This document shows positions 31,286-45,404 of a stretch of DNA of 64,000 nucleotides, piece by piece (the first letter of the stretch is position 1; every line of letters starts with the position of its first letter). A model generated the notes under the pieces. The model did no database searches, was not told the DNA's origin, and saw nothing but the letters and a program-made list of their open reading frames with translations. The DNA is from Euzebya tangerina (GTDB taxonomy: Bacteria > Actinomycetota > Nitriliruptoria > Euzebyales > Euzebyaceae): positions 682,001 to 746,000 of the forward strand of contig NZ_PPDK01000001.1 in NCBI RefSeq assembly GCF_003074135.1, given 5' to 3'. The translations under genes and the position numbers were made by a program.

Positions 31286-31343
31286 GATGTGTCGCATAGT
31301 GCCACGCCGACGGGTGCCGTGCACCCCCGAGTCTCCGGGGACG

Positions 31344-32492
31344 TCAGACGGAGGGCAGCGCGGGCGGGATGTCGAAGGGGCTGAGTGGCTCGTTGCCGTC
31401 CTCGGTGATCAGGAACATCTTCTCCAGACGGACGCCCCCGACGTCGTCACGGTAGCCGCCAGGCTCGACCAGGACGACCATGCCCGCCTGGAGGACGGCG
31501 TGCTCCCCGGGGATGATGCGCGGCCACTCGTGGACCGAGGTGCCGATGCTGTGGCCGATGTGGACCGGGTTGGCAAACCCGGCGTCGGTGATGATCGAGC
31601 GGATCGAGGCGTCGAAGTCGTGGGCGGTCACGCCGGGCCGCAGTGTCTCCAGGACCTGCTCCCAGGCGTGGTGGACGAGCCGGTAGAGATCGGCCAGCGC
31701 AGGCGTCGGCTCCCCGATGCAGGTCGTGGTGCAGGAGTCGCCCCAGTACCCGTCGACGCGGGGAGCCAGATCCGCGATGATCGCATCCCCCGGTCCCATC
31801 TCGCGCGTGCCGGGCCAGCCGCCGACCGCCGCGGTCCGGGCCTGTCCGGAGACCAGGTCGCCGGTGACAGCGCAGCGCTGGCCAGCGGCATCCTCCATCG
31901 CCGCACGCACGTCGTGGAAGAGCTCGAGCTCCGTCCGCCCCTCGTGCCCACCTGCGCGGACGACGGCGTGGCCGGCGGCCGTGACCTCGGCACAACGGCG
32001 CAGGGCGGCAACCTCCGCCTCGGTCTTTATGGCTCGCTGTCGGTTCAGCGCCTGGGTCAGCGTCCGTGTCGCGGTGGCACGCTCCTCCACAGCGCGGGTC
32101 ACGGCTGTCAGGACCTGTGCCCCTTCGACGGCGACGACCCCGCCGACGTCCAATTGGTCGAACAGCTGGGCGACGCTGGCCGCGTACTTCTCGCCCAGCG
32201 GGCGATGATCGGTGAAGCCCAGACACTCGTAGCTGACGATCACCCCGTCCGACGTGCCGACCGCCGACGCCTGCGCGACCGGCACCTCGAGCTCGTGGCA
32301 GACCAGCCCCACCGTGCCATCTCGGCTGATGACACCGGTCGTGGGCCCCCCGTCCCAGGGAGAGGGTCCGGCCTCGACCGCTGCGATGTGCTGCAGCCCG
32401 TACGCGACGGCCTCCTGCGAGGTCAGCACCGCCCAGTCCGCCTCGAGCTCGTCCAGGACCGCCTGGACCCGTCTGGTTCGTTCGTCCGTCAT
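31344..32492 (-). CDS. M24-family metallopeptidase (Xaa-Pro peptidase/creatinase-like)
   Basis: 382 residues: an N-terminal creatinase-like domain (about 1-140) and the pita-bread catalytic domain. The metal ligands are visible in order: Asp in IIADLAPRVDGYWGDSC (two), His in HIGHSIGTSVHE, Glu in VLVEPGGY and Glu in VRLEKMF. It would cleave X-Pro peptides or, as a creatinase-like relative, hydrolyse a C-N bond of a small substrate. It is the last gene of the 13-gene operon, 12 bases after the DUF4432 gene, so a metabolic rather than peptide substrate is possible. Confidence 0.88.
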   Translation of the reverse strand: MTDERTRRVQAVLDELEADWAVLTSQEAVAYGLQHIAAVEAGPSPWDGGPTTGVISRDGTVGLVCHELEVPVAQASAVGTSDGVIVSYECLGFTDHRPLGEKYAASVAQLFDQLDVGGVVAVEGAQVLTAVTRAVEERATATRTLTQALNRQRAIKTEAEVAALRRCAEVTAAGHAVVRAGGHEGRTELELFHDVRAAMEDAAGQRCAVTGDLVSGQARTAAVGGWPGTREMGPGDAIIADLAPRVDGYWGDSCTTTCIGEPTPALADLYRLVHHAWEQVLETLRPGVTAHDFDASIRSIITDAGFANPVHIGHSIGTSVHEWPRIIPGEHAVLQAGMVVLVEPGGYRDDVGGVRLEKMFLITEDGNEPLSPFDIPPALPSV

Positions 32493-32504
32493 CGCACGTT
32501 CCCT

Positions 32505-33581
32505 TCAGGCGTGGGCTGGCCCCGGTGGGGGAAGCCCCGCCAGATCGTCGGTCAGTTCCAGGGTGAGGTCGTAGGAGACCGACTCGTCCGGCTCCAGCGT
32601 CCGCAGCCGGCCGCTCTGCCGCGCCGTCGCTCGGCCCTCCGGCCCGTTGGTCGATGGCTCCAACCCCAGCACGTAGGTGCCGTCGGCCAGCATCCGCCAC
32701 ACGAACACATCGGGGAGCACCGCCGTGTCGAACCGCTCCACGAACGCCAGGCCGAGCCGGTCGTTGGCCAGGGCCACCACGGCCCGCTCGCCGTCGAACC
32801 GCAGCTGGGTGACCTCCTCGACGGCTCCCCGCTTCGGCTGGCCCATGCGGTCGAAGCCACGCACCGTGTGGTCGCCACGTGGGATGGCCTCGACGGCGGT
32901 GGTCACCAGTCGAGCCCCTTCGTCGAGGAGGGGCCAGCCGACGTTGACGTGGTACAGCAGCATGTGCGGTGTCGGCACGTGCCCGCCATTGGTCACGACG
33001 TCGCGGAGGGTGATGATCGGCCGCCGGAGGTCCATCTCAACGCGTCGTCGCAGCGTGAGCACCTCGGCGAAGACGCCCGCCTGCCGCACCAGCCCCTCCG
33101 CCCAGAGCGTGCCGGCATCATGGTCGACGCCGTAGCCGAGCAGCCGCGCCGGCTCGCCACTCAGCCGACCGTGCAGCGGGAAGGCCGACGTCGTCTTGGG
33201 CGGGTACGCCAGGTAGCGGGTCTCGTCCTCCTCGGGGAACATGGTGTGGTCCAGCCCCGCGGTGGCCAGCAACCCGCCGCCGAAGGAGCGGAGCCACCCC
33301 AGGTGCTCCGCTGTGGCCAGGCCGGGTGCGCGAGTGCCCACAGGGGAGATCCAGCTGATCGGCATCCCACCGAGCCGGCAGGCCCCCAGGTCGAACCCAC
33401 GATCGACCACGACGTCCAGCGTCAGCCCGGAGGGGCTCGCGAACTCGAGCAGTCGAGTGCCGCGGCCGGCACCATCGGACAACTCCACCAGCCGCACGTC
33501 GGCGACCTGGCTGCCCCGGCCGACCCGCTGCCGCCAGGCCACGGGATCCGGCGGCAACCACTCAGTGCGTGACCCAGCCAC
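32505..33581 (-). CDS. DUF4432 (aldose-1-epimerase-like) protein
   Basis: 358 residues from a GTG at 33581, overlapping the SDR gene by 20 bases. The galactose-mutarotase-like beta-sandwich is suggested by GFDLGACRLGGMPISWISPVG, GLLATAGLDHTM, PLHGRLSGEPA, MLLYHVNVGWPLLDEG and YVLGLEPSTNGPEG. The conserved His residues in PLHG and YHVN and the Glu in GLEP are candidates for the mutarotase catalytic set. It may open or invert the anomeric centre of the sugar handled by this operon. Confidence 0.85.
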   Translation of the reverse strand: MAGSRTEWLPPDPVAWRQRVGRGSQVADVRLVELSDGAGRGTRLLEFASPSGLTLDVVVDRGFDLGACRLGGMPISWISPVGTRAPGLATAEHLGWLRSFGGGLLATAGLDHTMFPEEDETRYLAYPPKTTSAFPLHGRLSGEPARLLGYGVDHDAGTLWAEGLVRQAGVFAEVLTLRRRVEMDLRRPIITLRDVVTNGGHVPTPHMLLYHVNVGWPLLDEGARLVTTAVEAIPRGDHTVRGFDRMGQPKRGAVEEVTQLRFDGERAVVALANDRLGLAFVERFDTAVLPDVFVWRMLADGTYVLGLEPSTNGPEGRATARQSGRLRTLEPDESVSYDLTLELTDDLAGLPPPGPAHA

Positions 33582-34314
33582 CGTCGATCCCGATCGTCTG
33601 GCCGGTGATGAAGGATGCGGCGTCGCTGGCGAGGAAGCCGACCAGGTTGCCGATGTCCTCGGGTGTCCCGCGTCGCTTGAGCGCCTGTTGGTCCAGGACC
33701 CACTGGTTGTACCCCGCCGGGTCGGGGTGGATCGCTTCGGCCGCAGTCGGGAAGGCGCCGGGTGAGATGGCGTTGACGGTGATCCCGTCCGGCCCGACCT
33801 CTCGGGCCAACGTCCGCGTGAAGCCGATGATACCGCCCTTGGATGCGACGTAGTCCAGCAGTTCGGCGAACCCCACGAAGAAGGTCAGGGACGCCACGTT
33901 GACGATGCGTCCGGCCGCGGACTCCTGCAGTTGCGGGTGCAGGGCCCTGGCGCAGAGGAAGTAGCCGCGCAGGTTCACCTCGAGCGTCCGGTCCCACTCC
34001 TCCGGGGTGATCTCCGTCCACGGTCGCGAGGCGTAGACCGCCGCGTTGTTGATCAGGATGTCGGCGCCGCCGAGATCGTCTGCTGCCTCGGCCAGTCGGC
34101 CCACGGCATCGAGGTCGCGCTGGTCGCACTCGACGCCCACCGCGTGGCCGCCGGTCCTGGTGAGACTCGTGACGAGCGCCTCCAGCCCGTCGGTGTCCAC
34201 ATCCGCGCAGATGACCGTGGCGCCGTCGGCGGCCAGCCGCCCGACGATGCCGTGCCCAAGCCCACCCGCGGCGCCGGTGACCACCGCGGTGCGACCGTCC
34301 AGAGGTCCGCTCAT
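33562..34314 (-). CDS. Short-chain dehydrogenase/reductase (first of two)
   Basis: 250 residues, classical SDR: cofactor motif VTGAAGGLGHG, NNAAV, catalytic Ser in NVASLTFF and YVASK for Tyr-Lys. CADVDTD at the end of strand 2 favours NAD(H). C-terminal FITGQTIGIDGGW is typical. It overlaps the second SDR gene by ATGA. Oxidation of a sugar or polyol hydroxyl is likely from the operon context. Confidence 0.9.
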   Translation of the reverse strand: MSGPLDGRTAVVTGAAGGLGHGIVGRLAADGATVICADVDTDGLEALVTSLTRTGGHAVGVECDQRDLDAVGRLAEAADDLGGADILINNAAVYASRPWTEITPEEWDRTLEVNLRGYFLCARALHPQLQESAAGRIVNVASLTFFVGFAELLDYVASKGGIIGFTRTLAREVGPDGITVNAISPGAFPTAAEAIHPDPAGYNQWVLDQQALKRRGTPEDIGNLVGFLASDAASFITGQTIGIDGGWVTH

Positions 34315-35093
34315 GGGTCGAGGGTCCTGGTCTGGTCGGCCGAGGTCGGCGCGGGTGCGCCGTAGGCCAGGAAGCCGCCGTCCACCGCCAGGGTTGTTCC
34401 GGTGACGTAGCTGGCGTCGCGTGAGAGCAGGAAGGCGATCGCGGCCGCGATCTCAGCGGGAGCGCCGACCCGCCGTGCCGGGATCCGGTCCAGCAGCCCG
34501 TCTTCGTCGATGAGCCCCATCTGGATGGCGTTGGCGACCATCGGTGTGCCGATGTAGCCGGGTTCGACGGCGTTCACGCGCACGCCGCGGGCCGCCCACT
34601 CCGTCGCCAGGGCGCGGGTCAGGCCCACGACGCCGGTCTTGGTGGCGCAGTACGGGGTCCGGCCGGGCATCCCGCGCTCGGAGTTTGAGGAGGCGAGGTT
34701 GACGATCGCGCCGCGTCCGGCCGCGAGCATGCGCGATCCCACGACCTGGCAGCACTCGAAGACGCCGGTGAGGTTGACCGCCACGACCTCGGCCCAGCGG
34801 GCGGGGTCCAGCGACTCGCTGGCGCCGATGCGCTGGATGCCGGCGTTGTTGACCAGGTCGGTGATGGGGCCCAGGGTGCGTTCGGTCTCCTGGACGCCGG
34901 CCTCGATGGTGGTGCGGTCGGTGACGTCGACGTGGACGGCGAGCGCCGGTCCGGGGAGGGTTGCGGTCAACGCCTCGGCCTGCTCGGTGTCGACGTCGGC
35001 CACGGCCACGGCCACGCCGTCGGCGGCCAGCCGCTTTGCCGTCGCGGCCCCGATGCCCTGGGCAGCGCCGGTGATCAGGGCCACCCGGCTCAC
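34311..35093 (-). CDS. Short-chain dehydrogenase/reductase (second of two)
   Basis: 260 residues from a GTG at 35093 that overlaps the transketolase stop (GTGA). It has ITGAAQGIGAAT, VADVDTE (NAD preference), NNAGIQ, Ser in NLASSNSERG and Tyr-Lys in YCATK, plus YVTGTTLAVDGGF. It is clearly distinct in sequence from the adjacent SDR, so the two probably act on different intermediates. Confidence 0.9.
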   Translation of the reverse strand: MSRVALITGAAQGIGAATAKRLAADGVAVAVADVDTEQAEALTATLPGPALAVHVDVTDRTTIEAGVQETERTLGPITDLVNNAGIQRIGASESLDPARWAEVVAVNLTGVFECCQVVGSRMLAAGRGAIVNLASSNSERGMPGRTPYCATKTGVVGLTRALATEWAARGVRVNAVEPGYIGTPMVANAIQMGLIDEDGLLDRIPARRVGAPAEIAAAIAFLLSRDASYVTGTTLAVDGGFLAYGAPAPTSADQTRTLDP

Positions 35094-36871
35094 GGCGCGA
35101 CCTCGGCCAGTGCCTGCGCCCACACGTCGTCGTCGACGCGGACGTAGTGGACCTTCTCGTGTGCTTCCAGGGTCGGGGCCCCTCTCCCGGGGACGGTGTC
35201 CAGGACCAGGGCCGCCGGGCTCGCGACCGATCGGGCCGTCGCGAATGCGGCCCGCAGTGCGTCGTGGTCGTGCCCGTCCAGGCGCTGGACGTGCAGCCCG
35301 AAGGCGGTGAGCTTGTCGACCACCGGCTCGAGTCCCATGACGTCATCGATCGCCCCGTCGGCCTGCTCGCCGTTGTAGTCCACGAAGAACGTCAGGTTGG
35401 CCAGCTGGTGGTGGGCGGCTGCCATGAAGGCCTCCCACACCGCGCCCTCGTCCAGTTCGCCGTCGGAGAGCTGGCAGATCACGTGCACGTCACGACCGGC
35501 AGAGCGCTCGCCGAGGGCGATCCCGACGGCCTGGGAGGGCCCCTGTCCCAGCGAGCCACCGGTCACCTCGAAGCCCGGGGCGTCCTCCAGTGGCGACTCC
35601 TCGATGGCCGACCCGTCTGCTCCGTAGGTCGCCAGTTGCTCGTCGTCGTAGACCCCGAGGGCGCCCAGGGTGGCGTAGAGGGCGATGGCGCTGTGCCCGG
35701 TCGAGAGTACGAAGCGGTCAGTCGGCTGCCCGTCCGCGCCGTGTCGCAGGACATCGGCGAAGACCACGGCCATCACGTCGGCGAGTTGCAGGCCCTGCCC
35801 GGCGTAGCCCTGCCCTCGCCGCCGACACATGTGCACGACGTTGTGTCGGATCCTCCGGGCCAGGTCGTGGCTGTGGCCACTCCAGGCGACGATCGGCTGC
35901 GGAGCCGCCTGTGCCGGATGCCCGGCGGGCGCGATGGCCCTCCGCCCTCGGATCACCTCGGCGATGGCAGTCGGCGACAGACCTGCCTGGTCACGGACGT
36001 AGTCGGGGGTCCCGTAGGCCTGCCAGGCGTCGGACAGACCAAGCCGGGTGACGGGCACGCCGACGCCGTGGTCGGCCAGGGCGAGCGCCACGGCGGCGCC
36101 AAGCCCGGCATGGCGCACGTGGTTCTCGACGGTGATCACCCGTCTGCGAGACCGGGCCAGATCGGCCACCACCTGGGCTGGGAAGGGCTTGAGCGAGGCC
36201 ACGTGGAGATGGGCAGCAGCGGCGCCCAACTCGCGCGCCTCACGCACCCAAGTGGTCGCCAGACCGGTCGAGACGACGGCCACGTCGTGGGCGCCGTCGG
36301 CCAGCACGCGGTGGCTGGGCAGCTCAGGGGTCGGGTCGTCGAAGAGCAGCGGGACCTGACCACGCATCGCCCGGATGTAGGTCAACCCACCGCGGTCCAG
36401 GGCGGTGTCGAGGGCCTGCCGCAGCTCGGTTGCATCGGCGGGGTCGAGCACGCGCATGCCGGGCACCGCACGCATCAACGCCGCGTCCTCGATGGCCTGG
36501 TGCGTGCCCCGGAACCGGCTGGTGACACCGGGCAGGAATCCGACGATCACGGCGTTGCTCGGGCCGGTGGCCAACGACATCGAGATCTGATCGTAGGCCC
36601 GGCGGGTCAGGAAGACCCCGAAGCCGACCACCACCGGCCGCCATCCGGCCTTGGCCAGGCCGCCCGCGATGCCGATCAGATTCTGCTCGGCCATGCCGAC
36701 CTGGATGAACCGGTCACCGAACGACTGGGCGAAGGGGAGGACGTCGGTCCACTTCGACAGGTCGGCACTGAGCACCACGAGGTCGTCATGGCGCCGGCCT
36801 GCTGCGACCAGCGCCTCGGCGAACGGTGCCGTGACGGTCCGGTGCGTTCCGGCGATGGTCTCAGCCAGCAT
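35090..36871 (-). CDS. Transketolase with halves fused in reversed order
   Basis: 593 residues from the ATG at 36871. Residues 1 to about 170 are the pyrimidine-binding domain (IQVGMAEQNLIGIAGGLAKAG, SRFRGTHQAIEDAALMRAVP) and 170-305 the transketolase C-terminal domain (SLKPFPAQVV, VITVENHVRHAGLG). The TPP/pyrophosphate domain comes last (about 325-593: STGHSAIALYATLG, SLGQGPSQAVGIALG, QLSDGELDEGAVWEAF, FVDYNGEQADG). In normal transketolase the TPP domain comes first; split versions are separate N and C subunits. Here the C subunit precedes the N subunit in one open frame with a Pro/Ala-rich linker. It transfers a two-carbon ketol unit between a ketose and an aldose; substrates unknown. Confidence 0.92.
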   Translation of the reverse strand: MLAETIAGTHRTVTAPFAEALVAAGRRHDDLVVLSADLSKWTDVLPFAQSFGDRFIQVGMAEQNLIGIAGGLAKAGWRPVVVGFGVFLTRRAYDQISMSLATGPSNAVIVGFLPGVTSRFRGTHQAIEDAALMRAVPGMRVLDPADATELRQALDTALDRGGLTYIRAMRGQVPLLFDDPTPELPSHRVLADGAHDVAVVSTGLATTWVREARELGAAAAHLHVASLKPFPAQVVADLARSRRRVITVENHVRHAGLGAAVALALADHGVGVPVTRLGLSDAWQAYGTPDYVRDQAGLSPTAIAEVIRGRRAIAPAGHPAQAAPQPIVAWSGHSHDLARRIRHNVVHMCRRRGQGYAGQGLQLADVMAVVFADVLRHGADGQPTDRFVLSTGHSAIALYATLGALGVYDDEQLATYGADGSAIEESPLEDAPGFEVTGGSLGQGPSQAVGIALGERSAGRDVHVICQLSDGELDEGAVWEAFMAAAHHQLANLTFFVDYNGEQADGAIDDVMGLEPVVDKLTAFGLHVQRLDGHDHDALRAAFATARSVASPAALVLDTVPGRGAPTLEAHEKVHYVRVDDDVWAQALAEVAP

Positions 36872-37391
36872 CGGGCGCTCCCGGTCCCGGCAGTGGCTCG
36901 GATGCCCAGTAGCGGGAGCGGAGGTGATGGGCGACACCCGGGGAGTTGACGGCAAACAGGTCGAAGGTGCCCTCGTAGTCCTCCGGCAGGTGGAAGCCGT
37001 GTGGCGTGCCGGCGGGTACGTGGAAGAGGTCGAGCGGGCCGGCGTCGTGGACGGTGTCACCGATCGTGACCTGCGCCTCGCCGGCGATGACCAGGTACAA
37101 CTCATCGCCGTAGCCATGGACGTGGGTGGGCCAGGCGGCCCCAGCCCCGGCTCGGATCAGCACCCAGTCCATGCGCCGCTCCGGCCACAGCAGCAGGTTG
37201 ATGGGCATGGCGCACGTCGCCGCGGGGAAGTCGGCCCGGACGGCCTCGTCGTACACGTTGGCCTTCAACGAGATGTCGCCCCGAAGTTGGGCGAGGTGCT
37301 CGTCCAGTTCGGCGACCGCGCCAGCTCCGTCGCCGCTGAGGCGATCGAATCCATGGCGGTCGTAGAAGGTGCGGTCGTGGGGGATGGTCAT
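36861..37391 (-). CDS. Cupin-domain protein
   Basis: 176 residues from an ATG with GGAG upstream. The single cupin barrel carries THVHGYGDELYLVIAGEAQV (motif 1 with two His and a Glu) and HVPAGTPHGFHLP (motif 2), so a metal site is likely. The N-terminal 60 residues are helical. It overlaps the transketolase start by 11 bases. Small cupins in sugar operons act as isomerases, epimerases, dioxygenases or ligand sensors; the sequence does not decide. Confidence 0.82.
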   Translation of the reverse strand: MTIPHDRTFYDRHGFDRLSGDGAGAVAELDEHLAQLRGDISLKANVYDEAVRADFPAATCAMPINLLLWPERRMDWVLIRAGAGAAWPTHVHGYGDELYLVIAGEAQVTIGDTVHDAGPLDLFHVPAGTPHGFHLPEDYEGTFDLFAVNSPGVAHHLRSRYWASEPLPGPGAPDAG

Positions 37392-37425: not shown

Positions 37426-38106
37426 TCAGTCGGTCAGCAGCTCGAACGGGTCGTCGGGGGGTTGGGCGCCGTCGGTCAGGTGCGCGAGCAGCGACACGTA
37501 GCCGTTGTGGACGTGGCGGGAGGTGACCTCGGCCACACGGTCGAGGTCGGCAGCCCGGACCGCGGCGAGCATCTCGCGGTGCTCGACGATCGACTGGGGG
37601 ACCCGTTCGCTGGCGACCCGCAGGAGGTCCCAGGGGAAGTCGGCCCACAGATCGGCGATGCCGTCGACGAAGGACTCGGGACCGGAGCGCTCATAGAACA
37701 GGAAGTGGAACCGTCGATTGAGTTCGGAGATGCGGAGACCGTCCGCAGCGGGGTCGGCCTCCTCCATCTCGTCCAGGATCCCCTCAGCAGCCATCAGATC
37801 GGCCGGCGTCATCCGCATGGTGGCGCGCTGCATCGCATACGGCTCGACCAGCCGCCGCAGCATGTAGGTCCCCTTGACCCGTTCGAGGTCGACCTCGGCG
37901 ACTCGGACGCCTCGGTGGGCGGTGCCCACGAGCAGACCCTCCGCCTGCAGCTGCCGAAGTGCCTCGCGAACGGGGGTGATCGAGGTGGAGTACTCCTCCG
38001 CCAGCTCGTCCTGCAGCACCCTGGTCCCGCGCTTCAGCTCGCCGTTGGCGATTCGCTCACGCAGTCCTCGAGCGATCATGTCCTTCTTGGTGACGGCCAC
38101 ACTCAC
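37426..38106 (-). CDS. GntR-family (FadR/FCD) regulator of the operon
   Basis: 226 residues from the GTG at 38106 that overlaps the CoA-transferase stop (GTGA); a second GTG at 38100 is equally readable. The winged helix (MIARGLRERIANGELKRGTR, ELAEEYSTSITPVREALRQL) is followed by an all-helical FCD domain with metal/ligand residues (ELNRRFHFLFYERSG, EHREMLAAVRAADLDRVAEV). It is encoded in the middle of the catabolic operon and is the best candidate to bind the palindrome in that operon's promoter (45388-45399). Confidence 0.92.
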   Translation of the reverse strand: MSVAVTKKDMIARGLRERIANGELKRGTRVLQDELAEEYSTSITPVREALRQLQAEGLLVGTAHRGVRVAEVDLERVKGTYMLRRLVEPYAMQRATMRMTPADLMAAEGILDEMEEADPAADGLRISELNRRFHFLFYERSGPESFVDGIADLWADFPWDLLRVASERVPQSIVEHREMLAAVRAADLDRVAEVTSRHVHNGYVSLLAHLTDGAQPPDDPFELLTD

Positions 38107-39281
38107 TCCAACATCTCGAGGGCCTGGTGGTCGAACGGGTTCCCATCTTCCCCCAACGTCGGTGGCCGTTCTCGCATCCGGACCGTCCCGAAGGCTCGCG
38201 CGGCCAAGCCGTCGATCGTCGTGACCGAACCTGCACCGCGAGCCGGGACGGTCTGGACGATGCCCCGTTCCCCGAGCACGGGGTGATCGAGCACCGCGCC
38301 CACGTCGTTCAGTCGCGCGTACGCGAAGCCACCGGTCGCCAGGAGCTCGACGGCCTCGTCGACGGTGACCGAGGCGAAGGCCTCGCGGACCAGCTGGTCG
38401 ACGGCCTCCCTGTTCCTGACGCGGTCGAGGTTCGAGATGAAGCGCTCGTCGTGGGCCAGATGGGAGGCGTGCAGGATCTGGTCGCAGAACCTCGACCACT
38501 CCGCGTCCTGCTCGATGGCCAGCAGCACCTTGCCGTCGGTGCAGGGGTAGACGCCGTACGGCGCGATGGCGTGATGGTGTTGGGGCATGCGGGGGTAGGT
38601 GATGCCGGCATTGGCGGCACTGGTGAGCATCGGCCCGAGGAACTCGGCCGCGACGTCGAGCATGGCCACGTCGAGGAACGCCCCGTGTCCGTCCTGCCGC
38701 AGCCGGTGGACGGCCGCAACAACGAGTGTGGCCGCGTAGATCCCCGAGGCGACGTCGCACATGGACACGCCGACACGGGTGGGTGTGTCGGGCGTGCCGG
38801 TCAGGCTCATGATCCCGCTCTCGGCTTGGACGAGCATGTCATAGGCCTTGCGGTCGGCGAAGCTGGTCTCGGCCCCGTATCCGGAGATGTGGCACACCAC
38901 CAGCTGTGGGTACTCCTCGCGCATCCGCCGCTCGGTCAGGCCCAGTCGACCCGCTGCTCGCGGGGACATGTTGAGGACCAGGACGTCGGTGTCGTGGAGC
39001 TGCGCCATGAACGCGTCGCGCTGCCCAGCGTCCGACAGGTCGACGGCGACGGAGCCCTTCCCACGGTTCAGCCACCAGAACTGCGCCGACTCACCGGCGG
39101 CGTGGTCGTCCCAGTGGCGGGCGAAGTCACCCTCGCCAGCTCGCTCCCACTTGGTCACCGTGGCCCCCATGTCAGCCAGGATCCTGGTGCACAGGGGCCC
39201 GGCGACGGACTGCTCGAGGCCGATCACCCGCACCCCGCGGAGGGGGGGTGCGCCGGGCGACGATCTGGTGGCGTGTGACAC
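38103..39281 (-). CDS. Class III (CaiB/BaiF) CoA-transferase
   Basis: 392 residues from the GTG at 39281, which has AGAGGA just upstream; the frame is open further but without conserved sequence. The family start GVRVIGLEQSVAGPLCTRILADMGATV, the NRGKGSVAVDL loop and the catalytic Asp in AYDMLVQAESGIMSLTG are present. It would move CoA between two carboxylic acids. Its presence in a sugar operon suggests that the pathway yields an organic acid that must be activated. Confidence 0.92.
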   Translation of the reverse strand: MSHATRSSPGAPPLRGVRVIGLEQSVAGPLCTRILADMGATVTKWERAGEGDFARHWDDHAAGESAQFWWLNRGKGSVAVDLSDAGQRDAFMAQLHDTDVLVLNMSPRAAGRLGLTERRMREEYPQLVVCHISGYGAETSFADRKAYDMLVQAESGIMSLTGTPDTPTRVGVSMCDVASGIYAATLVVAAVHRLRQDGHGAFLDVAMLDVAAEFLGPMLTSAANAGITYPRMPQHHHAIAPYGVYPCTDGKVLLAIEQDAEWSRFCDQILHASHLAHDERFISNLDRVRNREAVDQLVREAFASVTVDEAVELLATGGFAYARLNDVGAVLDHPVLGERGIVQTVPARGAGSVTTIDGLAARAFGTVRMRERPPTLGEDGNPFDHQALEMLE

Positions 39282-39342: not shown

Positions 39343-40665
39343 TCAGGAGTAGGCGTCCGGGAAGCTGCCGAGGTCACGGCAGCCGCACAGGGCGTAGAAG
39401 AGGGGTCCGAGCTCCTCCGCGATCGCCTCATCACGCTCCTCCGCCGTCTGGATGGCTGGCTGCGGCACGATCCAGCGCTCGGGCACCGGCGTGCCCTCCA
39501 GGATGTCCGCAGCGGCCTCGATGGCGGTCCGCCACTGGTAGTTGGGGAAGGTCGGGGCGACGGCGTTCAGGTCTCCCTCGGCCCAGGCCTGCAGGAACTG
39601 GTTCTCGTCCTCGCCGACGATCAGCGGGACCTCCAGACCCGCGTCCTCGAAGGCTTCGATCGTGGGGATCGCTGCTGCGCCGGCGTCCATCCACACCGCG
39701 TCGATCTGGCCGAAGCGCTGGATGGCGTCGGTCACGATCTGCTTGGTGGCCGTCGGGTCCTGTTCGGTGAACTCCACCGCCACGACGTTGACGTCGGAGT
39801 CGCGGAAGGCCTCGACGGCGGCACCCCAGCGCCACTCGAGCTCGGCCACGCCGGGCAGGATGCGCAGCGCCAGGACGTTGGCGCCGGGCTCGGCGTTCTC
39901 CACGATGAACTCGGCACCCTGGTAGCCGAACAGGTAGCCCCCGATCGAGCTGACGTAGGTCGTCTGGCAGTCGCTGTTGACCGGGCTCGCCAGGACCACG
40001 ACCGGAAGGCCGGCGTCGCAAGCAAGTTCCACAGCGGGCGTCAAGGCGTCCGCAGTGAAGGGAGCCACGATGAGCACGTCGCAGGTGCCGCCGTCCACCA
40101 GGGCTTCGATGTCGGCGATCTGCTGGTTGTCGTCACCCTCGGCGTCCACGTAGTTCAGCGTGACGTTCTCGATGTCCTCGGCTGCGGCCTGTGCCGTTGT
40201 GGCGCCCTGGGCACGCCAGCCGTTGCCCTCGGAGATGTTGGAGAAGCACACCTCGCCCTCGCCGTCGACGGCGAAGTCGGTCGTCTCGACCATGGTCGGG
40301 TCGAGTTGCTGCAGCCAGGGCTGGTCGTCGGGTCCTTCCGGCGTTGCATCAGCCAGCGCCAGCTGGGCCTCGAAGTCCTCCTGGACGAAGAAGTCGGTCT
40401 GGGCCAGCAGGTCGTCACCGCCGTCGTCGGCCGGCTCCTCCTCCGCTGGCTCGTCATCCGCTGCTGCGTCGTCAGCAGGCTCTGCGTCAGCGGACTCGTC
40501 CCCCGCCGGCTCGTCATCGGCAGGCTCGTCCTCGGCTGCGGTGTCGTCGGCCGCCGCGTCGGTGGTCTCCTCGTCGCCGTCATCTGCCGTGGAGCAGGCC
40601 GCGAGCAGGAGCGTCAGGACCATCAGGAGGGCCCAGAGGGTCCTGGCTGGGTGTCGGCTCGTCAT
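39343..40665 (-). CDS. Ribose-type ABC transporter substrate-binding lipoprotein
   Basis: 440 residues from the ATG at 40665, which shares one base with the upstream permease stop (TGATG). Lipobox LLLAACS; then an Asp/Glu/Ala-rich linker of about 50 residues; then a family-4 periplasmic-binding fold (VCFSNISEGNGWRAQGAT, CDVLIVAPFTADALTPAVELA, GYLFGYQGAEFIVENAEP, LIVGEDENQFLQAW). Cys residues near the C-terminus (ALCGCRDLG) could form a disulfide. The ligand is probably a monosaccharide or polyol. Confidence 0.92.
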   Translation of the reverse strand: MTSRHPARTLWALLMVLTLLLAACSTADDGDEETTDAAADDTAAEDEPADDEPAGDESADAEPADDAAADDEPAEEEPADDGGDDLLAQTDFFVQEDFEAQLALADATPEGPDDQPWLQQLDPTMVETTDFAVDGEGEVCFSNISEGNGWRAQGATTAQAAAEDIENVTLNYVDAEGDDNQQIADIEALVDGGTCDVLIVAPFTADALTPAVELACDAGLPVVVLASPVNSDCQTTYVSSIGGYLFGYQGAEFIVENAEPGANVLALRILPGVAELEWRWGAAVEAFRDSDVNVVAVEFTEQDPTATKQIVTDAIQRFGQIDAVWMDAGAAAIPTIEAFEDAGLEVPLIVGEDENQFLQAWAEGDLNAVAPTFPNYQWRTAIEAAADILEGTPVPERWIVPQPAIQTAEERDEAIAEELGPLFYALCGCRDLGSFPDAYS

Positions 40666-41639
40666 CAGTTTCCCTTTCGAGTGGATCGGGCTGCGATGGC
40701 CACAGCGCCGATGAGGATCAGCCCCTGCACGGTGAGTCGGAGGGGTTGTGGTAGTCCGAGGAGGTTCAGGACGGTGAAGAGGGCGGCCAGCGTCACGGCG
40801 CCGGCGACGGCCGCTGGGACCGACCCCTTGCCGCCGCCGAGCACTGCTCCGCCGAGCACGACGGCGGCGATGGCTTGGAACTCGAGTCCCGTGCCCAGGT
40901 CCAGGGAGACGCCGGTGAAGCCGGAGAGGAGGAAGGCGGCGATGCCGGCGAGGGTGCTGGAGAGCAGGAATGCCCGAAAGCGGACTGCGGCGGAGGGGAT
41001 GCCCGAGACACGGGCGGCGCGGGGGTTGCCCCCGACGATGGTGATCTGGTTGCCGAAGGTGGTGCGGTGCAGCAGGACGCCAGCCAGGATCATGACGGGG
41101 ACGGCGATCACCACCGACCACGGCAGCTGCCGGAGCAGAGGGTCGACGGCGAAGCCGCCACGACCCCACTGGCGAAACGCCTCCGGGAGGATGTTGCTGG
41201 GGACGCCGTCGGTCACCAGCCGGGCCGTGCCATCCAGGACGAGCAGCATGCCGAGGGTGCCGAGCAGGCTGGGGACCTTGAGCAGCAGCGTCACAGCGGC
41301 GTTGATCAGTCCCACCACCAGGCTGACACCCATGATGACGGCCAGTCCGAGCAGCCAGCGGCCGTCCTCCCCGCCGACGACCTCCGAGGCCAGGATGGCC
41401 GAGAGCGTGACCTGCGAGCCGACGGACAGGTCGAAGTCGCCGGCCGTCACGACGAAGACCTGGCCGACGGCCAGCAGGGCGGCCGGCATGACGGGCTTGA
41501 GGAAGAACGTGAGGAAGTTCGACGGGTCCAGCAGGGTGGTCTGCAACGCCACCATGGCCACGAGGACCGCCGCCATCACGAGGTACGGCGCCGCCTGGGC
41601 ATCCAGGCGCAGTCGGCTGGGCAGAGCGAGCGTGCTCAT
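40665..41639 (-). CDS. Ribose-type ABC transporter permease (second copy in operon)
   Basis: 324 residues with about ten hydrophobic segments and the RbsC-family signature (VVTAGDFDLSVGSQVTLSAI, TTFGNQITIVGGNPRAARVSG, AIAAVVLGGAVLGGGKGSV). It starts at an ATG overlapping the other permease's stop (ATGA). Having two distinct permeases suggests a heterodimeric channel as in Lsr- or Rha-type systems. Confidence 0.93.
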   Translation of the reverse strand: MSTLALPSRLRLDAQAAPYLVMAAVLVAMVALQTTLLDPSNFLTFFLKPVMPAALLAVGQVFVVTAGDFDLSVGSQVTLSAILASEVVGGEDGRWLLGLAVIMGVSLVVGLINAAVTLLLKVPSLLGTLGMLLVLDGTARLVTDGVPSNILPEAFRQWGRGGFAVDPLLRQLPWSVVIAVPVMILAGVLLHRTTFGNQITIVGGNPRAARVSGIPSAAVRFRAFLLSSTLAGIAAFLLSGFTGVSLDLGTGLEFQAIAAVVLGGAVLGGGKGSVPAAVAGAVTLAALFTVLNLLGLPQPLRLTVQGLILIGAVAIAARSTRKGN

Positions 41640-42616
41640 CGGGCCGGCTCCGTCCGGCGCAGCTGGTAGCTGGCTACAGCGGCGATGATGACGAGGCCCT
41701 CGACGATGGTCTTGGCGAAGGGGTCGACGCCGAGCACGTTGAGGACGACCTCCAGCACCGCGAAGATCACAACAGCCGCCACCGTTCCCGGGACGCCGCC
41801 GCGACCGCCCCCCAGGGCGGTGCCGCCGAGCACGACGACCGCGATCGACTCGAGGTCGTAGCCGCCACGCGTGCCGACACCGGTGTCGGGCCCGCCGAGC
41901 CGGCTGGCCAGGTACACGCCGGCCAGTGCGGCGAGGATGCTGCAGACCACGTGGGCGGCGACGATCACCCGCTCGACACGGATGCCGGAGGCACGGGCGA
42001 TGTCCTGCGACCCGCCGATGGCGTAGACGTGGTGGCCGGTGCGGGACCGACGGAGCCAGAGGTGGGCAGCGACAGCCACGATGACCAGGACGACGAAGGA
42101 GAGCGGGACCGCGCCGAGGCTCCCGTAGCCGAACTCGCGGAAGCCCTCCGACACGCTGCCGACGCGACCCTCGACCAGGGCGTTCAGGGCCCCGTTCAAC
42201 AGCAGCGCCGTGCCCAGGGTGGCGATCAGCGGATTGACGCCGAGCCGGGCGATGACCAGGCCGTTGACGGCTCCGACCACCCCTCCGGCGGCGAGCGCGG
42301 CCACCACGGCGGGGACGGCCATGCCGGCCTGGCCGTCCATGACGGCCGCCGTGACCACCGCGCCGAGGGTGACCGTCCAGGCCACGCTCAGATCGAAGGA
42401 CCCGACGACCATGGCCAGGGTCTGGCCCACGGCGACGAACCCCAGGGCCGTCGATCCGATCGCGATCGTCCGCAGGCTCGTGGAGGAGAGCATGCTCTCG
42501 CCACTGAGCGTCGTGATCGCGAGCGCGGCGATCAGGACGGCGATCAGGACCAGCCAGATCGGCTCCACCTGGCGGCGCGACCACAGCGGTGCCATCACAG
42601 TCGAGGCCGTTGTCAT
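41636..42616 (-). CDS. Ribose-type ABC transporter permease (first copy in operon)
   Basis: 326 residues, about ten membrane segments, with the family motifs MVVGSFDLSVAWTVTLGAV, HHVYAIGGSQDIARASGIR and SIAVVVLGGTALGGGRGGV. It overlaps the ATPase gene by 4 bases. It is paired with the permease at 40665-41639, which it resembles only in general layout. Confidence 0.93.
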   Translation of the reverse strand: MTTASTVMAPLWSRRQVEPIWLVLIAVLIAALAITTLSGESMLSSTSLRTIAIGSTALGFVAVGQTLAMVVGSFDLSVAWTVTLGAVVTAAVMDGQAGMAVPAVVAALAAGGVVGAVNGLVIARLGVNPLIATLGTALLLNGALNALVEGRVGSVSEGFREFGYGSLGAVPLSFVVLVIVAVAAHLWLRRSRTGHHVYAIGGSQDIARASGIRVERVIVAAHVVCSILAALAGVYLASRLGGPDTGVGTRGGYDLESIAVVVLGGTALGGGRGGVPGTVAAVVIFAVLEVVLNVLGVDPFAKTIVEGLVIIAAVASYQLRRTEPAR

Positions 42617-44127
42617 GCGGCACCCGAGAGCTGATCGAGGGTGATGCCGGTCGCCAGCGACATCACGTCCTCCTCGGAGGCATCCGCCGGCAATTCCCCG
42701 GCCACGGTGCCGCGGCGCAGCACCACCACGCGGTCGGAGACCCCCAGCAGTTCGGGGATCTCGGAGGAGATCATCACCACCCCCATGCCCTGCGTGGCCA
42801 GGTCGCGCAGGACCGTGTGGATCTCAGCCTTCGAGCCGACGTCGATGCCTCGCGTGGGTTCGTGCAGCAGGAGCACATCCACATCGGCCGTGAGCCACTT
42901 GGTGAGGACCACCTTCTGCTGGTTGCCGCCGCTGAGCTCGGCGACCGGCTGCTCGGCGCTGCGGTACTTCAGCGCGAACCGGTCGAGCAGGGCGATGATG
43001 CGGTCGCGCAGTCCCTCGGTGCGTCGGAGCGCCGCTGCGGTCATCCCCGCGTTGGTGCGGATCGACAGGGTGACCACCAGACCCTCGCCCTTGCGGTCGG
43101 CCGTGACGTAGCCGATGCCGCCAGCCACCGCCTGGCGGGGAGACTGCACGTCCAAGCGCGTTCCAGCCACGTCGACGGACCCGTGCGTGAAGGGGACCAG
43201 ACCGAAGATGCCGTCGGCCAGCTCGGCCTGCCCGGCCCCCTCCAGGCCGCCGATCCCGAGCACCTCACCACGACGGAGGGACAGGGAGATCGGCCCGACC
43301 CGTTCATTGCGCACCGCATCGAGGCGGAGCACGACCTCACCGATGTCCTCGGGCCCTGCCCAGTCGGGGTAGTACTCGTCGAGGTCGCGCCCGACCATCA
43401 GCCGCACCACGTCCTGCTCGGTGAGCTCGCCGACGTCCCGTTCGGCGACGCGCTGCCCGTCGCGGAGCACGACCACCCGGTCGGCCAGGTGGAAGACCTC
43501 CTCCAGCCGGTGGCTGATGTAGACGACCGCCGTCCCGGCTGTCGCAAGATCTCCGATCAAGGTGAACAGGGCCGCGGCTTCCTGTGGCGCGAGCGCCGCA
43601 GTGGGCTCGTCCATGATGAGCACGCGGGCGTCAACGGCCAGTGCCTTGGCGATCTCCACCATCTGCTGTCGTGCCAGCGTCAGGTCGCCAGCCCGATCGT
43701 CGGGCCGCACGGCGTCGGCGACGCCGAGGCGGTCGAGGAGCGCCTGGGTCGCCCGATGCATGGCGCGACGATCCACCACGCCGCGGGCGCGCGGTTCGAC
43801 GCCGAGGAAGACGTTCTGCGCCACGGAGCGCTCGGGGAGGATCGACAGCTCCTGGTGGATGATGGAGATGCCGGCACGACGGGCTTCCAGCGGGTGCTTG
43901 AAGCGCACCGACTGGCCGTCGACGACGAGATCGCCCGCATCCGGCCGGTGGACACCGGTCAGCAGCTTCATGAGCGTGGACTTGCCGGCGCCGTTCTCGC
44001 CGACCACGGCGGTGACGCTGCCTGGCGCGATCGTGAGGTCGACGGCGTCGACGGCCACGAGTGCGCCGAAGCGCTTCGTGAGCGCGCGCGCTTCCAGGAT
44101 CGGTTGATCCGACGACGGTGTCGACAT
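42613..44127 (-). CDS. Ribose-type ABC transporter ATPase (two NBDs)
   Basis: 504 residues. NBD1 has Walker A GENGAGKSTLMKLL, a signature LTLARQQMVEI and Walker B VLIMDEPTAAL. NBD2 has the degenerate Walker A usual for this family (GLEGAGQAELADG) but a normal signature LSGGNQQKVVL and LLLHEPTRGIDVG. It energises sugar import through the two permeases that follow. It is 22 bases after the oxidoreductase gene and lacks an obvious Shine-Dalgarno. Confidence 0.94.
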   Translation of the reverse strand: MSTPSSDQPILEARALTKRFGALVAVDAVDLTIAPGSVTAVVGENGAGKSTLMKLLTGVHRPDAGDLVVDGQSVRFKHPLEARRAGISIIHQELSILPERSVAQNVFLGVEPRARGVVDRRAMHRATQALLDRLGVADAVRPDDRAGDLTLARQQMVEIAKALAVDARVLIMDEPTAALAPQEAAALFTLIGDLATAGTAVVYISHRLEEVFHLADRVVVLRDGQRVAERDVGELTEQDVVRLMVGRDLDEYYPDWAGPEDIGEVVLRLDAVRNERVGPISLSLRRGEVLGIGGLEGAGQAELADGIFGLVPFTHGSVDVAGTRLDVQSPRQAVAGGIGYVTADRKGEGLVVTLSIRTNAGMTAAALRRTEGLRDRIIALLDRFALKYRSAEQPVAELSGGNQQKVVLTKWLTADVDVLLLHEPTRGIDVGSKAEIHTVLRDLATQGMGVVMISSEIPELLGVSDRVVVLRRGTVAGELPADASEEDVMSLATGITLDQLSGAA

Positions 44128-44149: not shown

Positions 44150-45337
44150 CTAGATGATGACGTCGGAGACCGCGCCGTCGTCCTCGCGCAGGATCAGGTT
44201 GGTCCGTCCGTCGGGCAGCAGCTCCTTCTTGAGGACGATCTTCCCGTCGTGCCGCTCGATGTCCTTGGCGATCCGCGGCGTCTCGCCGTGTCGCCACTCG
44301 ACGTGCACCGGTTCCCAGGCACGGGTCTCCACGGACTTGTACGCGGCGTCCATCACGGCGTTGACGACGTAGCCGTCGTAGAAGGTCTCCGCGGGTTCGC
44401 GACCTTCGTCCATGGCGTCGAACATGTCGAGGAACATGTCGACGTAGCCCAGCGCCGAGGCCTCACCGCCGACCGGGAACAGCCAGCCCGCGTCGGTCTC
44501 GGCCTTCTCGGCGACGTAGCCGGCACCCTGGCCGGTGGAGTACATCTCGAGCCCCGTCCGCAGCCAGTGATCGATGCGCACGATCCCGTCGGTCCCCGAC
44601 ACCTCGTCGCGCAGGTCCATGCCTCCCCGGAAGGTCCACGAGCACTCGAACTGACCGATGGCGCCGTTGTCGAACCTCACCAGCGCGACCGCGTTGTCCT
44701 CGAGGTCGATGGGGTGGACCAGCGTGTCGGCCCAGGCCATCACCTCGACCGGCCGGTTCCCCTTGCCGACGAAGTTTCGGATGATCTCGATGCAGTGGCA
44801 CGACATGTCGATGATGGCGCCGCCGCCGGCGGTCTCCTTGTTCCAGAAGTGGGCGGTGTGGGGTCCCGGGTGAGCTTCACGGCTGCGGACCCAGGTGACG
44901 TCGCCGATGGCGCCGTTGTTCACCGCTTCGAGGGCCTTGAGCGTCTTGGGGGTGTAGCAGAGATCCTCCAGGTAGCCGGCGAAGACGCCAGCCTTCTCCA
45001 CGGCGTCCAGCATGCGCTTGGCCTCCTCTGCCGTGCGTGCCAGGGGCTTGGTGCACAGGACGGCCTTGCCAGCTTCCGCGGCGAGCATCACGGCCTCCTC
45101 GTGCAGGGAGTTGGGCAGCCCGATGACAACTGTGTCGGTGTCCGGGTGGTTGATCGCCTCCTTCATGTCGGTGGCGGTGTGGGGGATGTCCCAGCGGGAC
45201 GAGAACGCGTCAGCACGCTCCTGGGTCCGCGAGTAGACGCAGCCGACCCGGTCACGTCCACGGAAGGCGTGCAGCGTCTCGGCGTAGAAGTTCCCGATCA
45301 GTCCGGTCCCGAGCAGGGTGATGGCGTGGCTCTCCAC
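44150..45337 (-). CDS. Gfo/Idh/MocA-family oxidoreductase
   Basis: 395 residues from the GTG at 45337, with AGGAG upstream; the frame is open to 45403 but that part covers the promoter. The N-terminal Rossmann domain begins [17 protein letters not shown], the cofactor-associated Lys is in [16 protein letters not shown], and the catalytic-domain pattern [20 protein letters not shown] holds the typical GGG-x3-D-x3-H. It would oxidise a sugar or inositol-like hydroxyl with NAD(P). It is the first gene of the leftward operon. Confidence 0.92.
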
Positions 45338-45375
45338 AGATGGCTCCTGGGTTGCAAGTCGTCGTGTTTCGTGCA

Positions 45376-45404
45376 TCTCATCGCAGATCATGCATGATGT
45401 CAAG
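45376..45404 (-). promoter_or_regulatory. Promoter of the 13-gene operon with palindromic operator in the spacer
   Basis: On the reverse strand TTGACA (45404-45399, consensus -35) is followed after 17 bases by a weak TGAGAT (45381-45376). A perfect 12-bp palindrome ATCATGCATGAT (45388-45399) fills the spacer and touches the -35, an ideal repressor position. The divergent region (45338-45465) is markedly A+T-rich for this genome. Binding by the operon's GntR protein is inferred. Confidence 0.6.

Follow-up and report, generated by a model that had tools for sequence, protein, structure and literature searches.

A naturally permuted transketolase-like protein of Euzebya tangerina that very probably arose by order reversal and fusion of split transketolase genes

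A run of thirteen minus-strand genes lies within the 64,000-nucleotide stretch of Euzebya tangerina DNA that was analyzed (the window) and encodes, from its upstream end, a Gfo/Idh/MocA dehydrogenase, the ATPase, two permeases and binding protein of a sugar ABC transporter, a family III CoA-transferase, a GntR/FCD regulator, a cupin, a transketolase-like protein, two SDR proteins, a DUF4432 protein and an M24 metallopeptidase-family protein (Table 1). The run has one wider gap, of a few hundred bases, ahead of the binding-protein gene. The transketolase-like gene is tightly placed in the run, with its start within the last bases of the cupin gene and its stop codon overlapping the first SDR gene. 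The initial annotation had described a 13-gene catabolic operon without aldolase or sugar kinase, and the description held: the gene run was confirmed, and a family search matched neither aldolase nor kinase families among the thirteen genes. The DUF4432 and M24 peptidase-family genes (31344-33581) close the sugar operon, and a plus-strand open reading frame lying over them (31287-33572) had no family match and is probably spurious.

Table 1. Coordinates of the operon genes and of features within the permuted transketolase-like gene (positions in the window)
Feature	Position	Strand	Basis or remark
Gfo/Idh/MocA dehydrogenase	44150..45403	minus	70% identical to one near Jannaschia locus
Sugar ABC ATPase (AraG/XylG/RbsA type)	42613..44127	minus	
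Sugar ABC permease 1	41636..42616	minus	
Sugar ABC permease 2	40665..41603	minus	start approximate
Ribose-type periplasmic binding protein	39343..40269	minus	start approximate
Family III CoA-transferase	38103..39251	minus	start approximate
GntR/FCD regulator	37426..38076	minus	start approximate
Cupin	36861..37391	minus	overlaps transketolase-like start by 11 bases; 50% identical to cupin before Jannaschia tktB
Permuted transketolase-like protein (Pyr - C - linker - PP), 593 aa	35090..36871	minus	Pfam, structure model
Pyrimidine-binding domain, aa 14-173, catalytic Glu62	36353..36832	minus	Pfam PF02779 Transket_pyr, 8.8e-27
Transketolase C domain, aa 194-303	35963..36292	minus	Pfam PF02780 Transketolase_C, 1.7e-12
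GTGA at codon 306/307, out of frame (GTG in frame, TGA in frame +1)	35953..35956	minus	junction reading
Pro/Ala-rich linker, aa 309-333, ~25 residues	35873..35947	minus	lower-confidence coil in model
ThDP/PP domain, aa 336-582, Mg ligands Asp470 and Asn500	35126..35866	minus	Pfam PF00456 Transketolase_N, 1.3e-32
SDR 1	34311..35123	minus	overlaps transketolase-like stop; 61% identical to SDR after Jannaschia tktA
SDR 2	33562..34314	minus	50% identical to second Jannaschia SDR
DUF4432 protein	32505..33581	minus	Pfam PF14486, 3e-84
M24 metallopeptidase-family protein	31344..32492	minus	

The transketolase-like gene lies exactly where the initial annotation had placed it and reads from an ATG at 36871 to a TGA at 35092-35090 with no internal stop. 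Matches to the Pyr, C and PP domains all exceed the curated Pfam cut-offs and follow one another in the order Pyr-C-PP, not the PP-Pyr-C order of transketolase (EC 2.2.1.1); thus the open reading frame and Pfam both confirmed the earlier claim of one continuous frame in which Pyr and C come first, then a linker and then PP. In ordinary transketolases, in DXS and in bacterial pyruvate dehydrogenase E1, the PP domain comes first (PMC7661550). The protein is not a DXS, as it scored 136 bits against the TIGR00204 cut-off of 466 and also differs from DXS in domain order, nor is it a pyruvate:ferredoxin oxidoreductase, for which the sole match was PFOR_II at 20 bits against a cut-off of 27. By sequence, the nearest families are transketolases. 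An order with Pyr before PP is present in pyruvate:ferredoxin oxidoreductases and decarboxylases, and thus the novelty is confined to the transketolase branch and does not extend to all ThDP enzymes. We conclude that, as far as we have seen, the Pyr-C-PP arrangement is new within the transketolase branch.

A monomer model built on alignment rows of both halves (pLDDT 85.5, pTM 0.75) showed residues 309-333 as coil. Searches with Foldseek and VIA-align indicated that residues 12-309 match the C-terminal chain 6yaj (Z 34.8, 2.3 Å over 289 residues) and that residues 331-593 match the N-terminal chain 6yak (Z 34.7, 2.0 Å over 263 residues), the two chains of a solved split transketolase. None of the Foldseek matches listed spanned both halves, as expected for a permuted chain, and the Pyr-C half matched DXS structures as well as transketolases. 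Activity of split transketolase requires both chains to be assembled (PMC7661550). Two fused chains would pair to give the assembly that the two-plus-two split enzyme has, with each ThDP sitting between one Pyr domain and one PP domain, such that the order of domains along the chain would be immaterial for catalysis.

The motifs expected of a ThDP enzyme are present, including GMAEQN (catalytic Glu62), STGH, GGSLGQG, SDGELDEG (Mg ligands Asp470 and Glu475) and DYNG (Mg ligand Asn500), as well as His575. Glu62, His393, the GSL residues, Asp470, Glu475, Asn500 and His575 are invariant in 77 to 80 relatives (80 for Glu62), and the protein contains the full ThDP/Mg and catalytic residue set of transketolase (Asp, Asn, two Glu and His). 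A GYxGQ motif stands at the region of E. coli His26, and its Tyr is found in 81 of the 81 relatives showing that region; members of the GYxGQ split subfamily have two separate genes, whereas here both halves share a single frame. The initial annotation had stated that all cofactor motifs are intact. Alignment upheld the statement for ThDP, Mg and the catalytic Glu, but it did not carry over to the substrate pocket, from which most phosphate-orienting residues are missing.

To find relatives, 84,980 species genomes were scanned with six exact 8-residue patterns from the permuted protein, a scan that may miss rarer or more distant fusions, and open reading frames at the best 80 of 292 loci were sorted by half and order. 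Among those best 80 loci, the usual order, in which tktA (PP) precedes tktB (Pyr-C), was found in 72, the reverse in 5 (L010 from Jannaschia and L011 to L014 from actinobacterial metagenome-assembled genomes [MAGs]), a single visible half in 3 and a fused gene in none. A sixth reversed split locus, L123 (actinobacterial), came from a genome search, and these six are the loci most similar to the permuted protein. Five reversed junctions were read, each with an overlap of 4 bases (ATGA or GTGA) or 1 base. Two genomes bearing reversed pairs also have further split pairs, which lie far from the reversed ones and follow the usual order. The record of L012 is titled as a "Bifidobacterium breve" MAG, yet it shares its order with the L011 and L013 genomes, and its gene arrangement and proteins are almost identical to those of L013 (an Actinomycetota MAG); the species label looks wrong. 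Two Microvirga loci (L036 and L087) are distinct split pairs of the same subfamily, a few kilobases apart on opposite strands.

Maximum likelihood trees were built separately from separate alignments of the two halves. In both trees, the reversed loci and the permuted protein fell on one side of a branch (support 100/99 for the PP half and 100/100 for the Pyr-C half) with the permuted protein as sister to Jannaschia (100/98 and 100/99, respectively), and thus the fused protein nests within the reversed split group, whose Pyr-C-upstream arrangement it shares. Two residues beside the substrate site also mark the reversed clade: Arg121, where all 80 usual-order rows have Gly, and Glu425, where all 77 have Met. 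Moreover, Jannaschia shares the gene order cupin-tktB-tktA-SDR-SDR (50, 56, 60, 61 and 50% identity, respectively) and has a closely similar Gfo dehydrogenase near the locus; its transporter is different. The reversed split loci, the nesting in the trees and the Jannaschia synteny together argue for a reversal of gene order followed by fusion. The ancestor would have been a split transketolase with PP encoded by tktA and Pyr-C by tktB, the gene order would have reversed from tktA-tktB to tktB-tktA, and later, in the E. tangerina lineage, a frame change at a short stop/start overlap would have joined tktB to tktA and left a flexible linker where they met. We conclude that the protein is very probably a naturally permuted ThDP ketol-transferase born in this way. 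The initial annotation had proposed a permuted enzyme rather than debris, derived from fused split tktB-tktA genes; the six reversed split loci and the trees of both halves support both proposals.

The fusion could be a sequencing or assembly error, with the true genome encoding a split tktB-tktA pair that overlaps at GTGA. The reversed-order relatives are all split, and there is one fused copy in one assembly. Between the halves, the GTG at codon 306 is the sole start in frame; a TGA overlaps it in frame +1, and one extra G in GAGGTGA could mimic a fusion. When single-base changes were simulated, an insertion anywhere in codons 297-340 extended the first half to codon 385 and a deletion past approximately codon 306 extended it to codon 366, apart from two positions that gave a stop at codon 330; a deletion in codons 297-306 gave a 4-base GTGA stop/start overlap resembling that of the split relatives. 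Codon composition of the linker cannot separate fusion from error, because under the error the linker would be the tktA N terminus. TktB would then stop at residue 305, however, whereas all aligned TktB rows but two continue for at least 4 residues and mostly at least 6, and the lead of TktA ahead of GYAGQ would be approximately 50 residues instead of the 29 to 34 or so in relatives. Furthermore, residues 306-314 (VIRGRRAIA) are similar to the TktB tail of Jannaschia (VLSGERVAA), and the model puts a helix across residues 300-308. Ending the first half at residue 305 would take away the tip of the last TktB helix, and the GTGA is thus better read as what may remain of the stop-start overlap between tktB and tktA in split relatives. 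The run of bases is only GG rather than a long homopolymer, and the other operon genes are intact families. From residues 306-314 to GYAGQ, the permuted protein has about 40 residues and Jannaschia TktA has 33, consistent with an end-to-end join of tktB and tktA with little added. We conclude that the fusion is very probably genuine and that a sequence error is unlikely.

A second fused copy was not found in 150 relatives, in 396 genomes of the phylum, in 346 and 398 genomes around the Jannaschia genome or in 166 and 198 genomes around the actinobacterial reversed-locus genomes, for a total of about 1,660 genome searches in partial and partly overlapping samples. Likewise, no plasmid record covered 80% of a junction query. 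A widespread subfamily of permuted proteins, which many relatives would have spoken for, thus gained no support, as only one fused example emerged across the genomes searched. The reversed pair occurs in Actinobacteria and one alphaproteobacterium and is absent from the three other genomes of the Euzebya genus, a spread that suggests horizontal transfer. Split transketolases are said to be limited to archaea and certain thermophiles (PMC7661550); contrary to this restriction, mesophilic bacteria commonly carry split transketolase-like genes, as at loci L015 to L089, with matches also in 739 plasmid records, not all of which are necessarily split. A search of open-access literature yielded no paper on a permuted or reverse-order transketolase and none on apulose with transketolase.

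Residues are compared below by number equivalences among the human, yeast and E. coli transketolases that we take to be correct. E. coli His26 corresponds to Tyr356 and His100 to Ser426, to which Glu425 is adjacent; Arg121 falls at the site of E. coli Asp469, is found in the reversed clade only and could hold a substrate carboxylate. Ordinary transketolases contain a phosphate motif, RSFHR (PMC11659671), the sites of which are T14, W41, F84, L113 and R170 in the permuted protein, so that F84 and R170 alone agree with the motif. In usual-order relatives, the sites are mostly E/D, Y, Y, L and R, and loss of most phosphate-orienting residues is common to the whole subfamily and not confined to the permuted protein. 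The solved E. coli variant S385Y (5hht, by title) carries the residue that natural relatives have, and the E. coli variant R358I/H461S/R520Q performs better on 5-keto-gluconate (PMC12016104). Since most residues that grip the phosphate are gone, the substrate is probably unphosphorylated.

The protein could instead be an ordinary transketolase that acts on phosphorylated ketoses, its halves merely rearranged. Its best matches are transketolases, the cofactor and catalytic residues are kept, and so are R170 (E. coli R520) and His575. At the sites of E. coli H26, H100, R358, S385, H461 and D469, however, the permuted protein has Y, S, T, W, L and R, respectively, whereas the characterized split enzyme of C. 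hydrogenoformans has ordinary residues at most such sites. Moreover, the same genome also encodes a full-length ordinary transketolase, which indicates that the permuted protein is a specialized extra copy. Ordinary function is thus quite unlikely. The transketolase scaffold could also serve another ThDP reaction, for instance a DXS-like or acyloin-forming ligation or the cleavage of a cyclic ketol produced by the Gfo/inositol-dehydrogenase-like enzyme; this would fit the remodeled pocket, the match of the Pyr-C half to DXS structures as well as to transketolases and the resemblance of the operon Gfo to inositol and levoglucosan dehydrogenases. The nearest sequences are transketolases, however, and the best match of the PP half is a split transketolase, and we regard such a reaction as rather unlikely.

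Ketol transfer could plausibly be an unusual step in this operon, as the initial annotation had hinted. A two-carbon ketol unit would be moved from an unphosphorylated ketose, perhaps one bearing a carboxylate, in a catabolic operon for a sugar or sugar acid that has dehydrogenases and neither kinase nor aldolase. From the missing residues and the neighboring genes, our guess is that the substrate is a sugar acid. A galactonate-dehydratase-like, enolase-superfamily gene adjoins the transketolase genes at actinobacterial reversed loci (L011:10809-12047, L012:10724-11929 and L014:3452-4750), where SDR is also present, and would fit such a substrate; the E. tangerina operon lacks a sugar-acid dehydratase. 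The reversed loci L012 and L013 add two Gfo genes and a 2-hydroxyacid dehydrogenase in a putative sugar-acid operon. Near the Jannaschia locus, a gene at L010:913-1872 encodes a beta-keto acid cleavage enzyme whose score exceeds the cut-off for 3,5-dioxohexanoate:acetyl-CoA acetone transferase. That the permuted protein is a dedicated ketol-transferase cleaving an unphosphorylated, carboxylated ketose, e.g., a keto-sugar acid, in place of kinase and aldolase, and thereby defines a new route for its clade, is a tentative proposal with the odds against it.

Among named systems, the split transketolase of C. hydrogenoformans (PMC7661550) consists of the same pieces (PP and Pyr-C) with the same folds at 35 to 38% identity and likewise lacks a PP-Pyr linker, but its two chains are unfused and each is inactive alone, and it keeps the ordinary substrate residues GHP, DLSKST, ATHAG and GED. 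Canonical homodimeric transketolases (E. coli TktA and human TKT) share the three domains and the ThDP chemistry but have the order PP-Pyr-C, a PP-Pyr linker of ~70 residues and phosphate-binding residues. The sulfofructose transketolase SqwGH (PMC11659671) is a split enzyme with an altered head-group motif, RAFDR, and a nonphosphate substrate, but it is unfused and its motif differs from that of the permuted protein; sulfosugar pathway genes were not found in the E. tangerina operon. Usual-order split genes of Mesorhizobium, Devosia, Azospirillum, Planctomycetota and others share GYxGQ and the loss of the phosphate grip, but have tktA before tktB and lack the two clade-marking residues. Only the reversed loci of Jannaschia sp. 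LMIT008 and the actinobacterial MAGs share both piece order and clade, along with Arg121 and Glu425 where visible, and differ in being two genes.

The permuted protein would thus unite in one chain a split transketolase-like enzyme from a family with a pocket rebuilt away from sugar phosphates, and as such may be useful to enzyme engineers. The usual explanation for circular permutation of enzymes is duplication followed by trimming. In this case, the stages of a permutation seem to be preserved in living genomes as the normal-order split pair, the reversed split pair and the fused reversed pair, and the survival of the intermediate, the reversed split pair, is the most surprising aspect.
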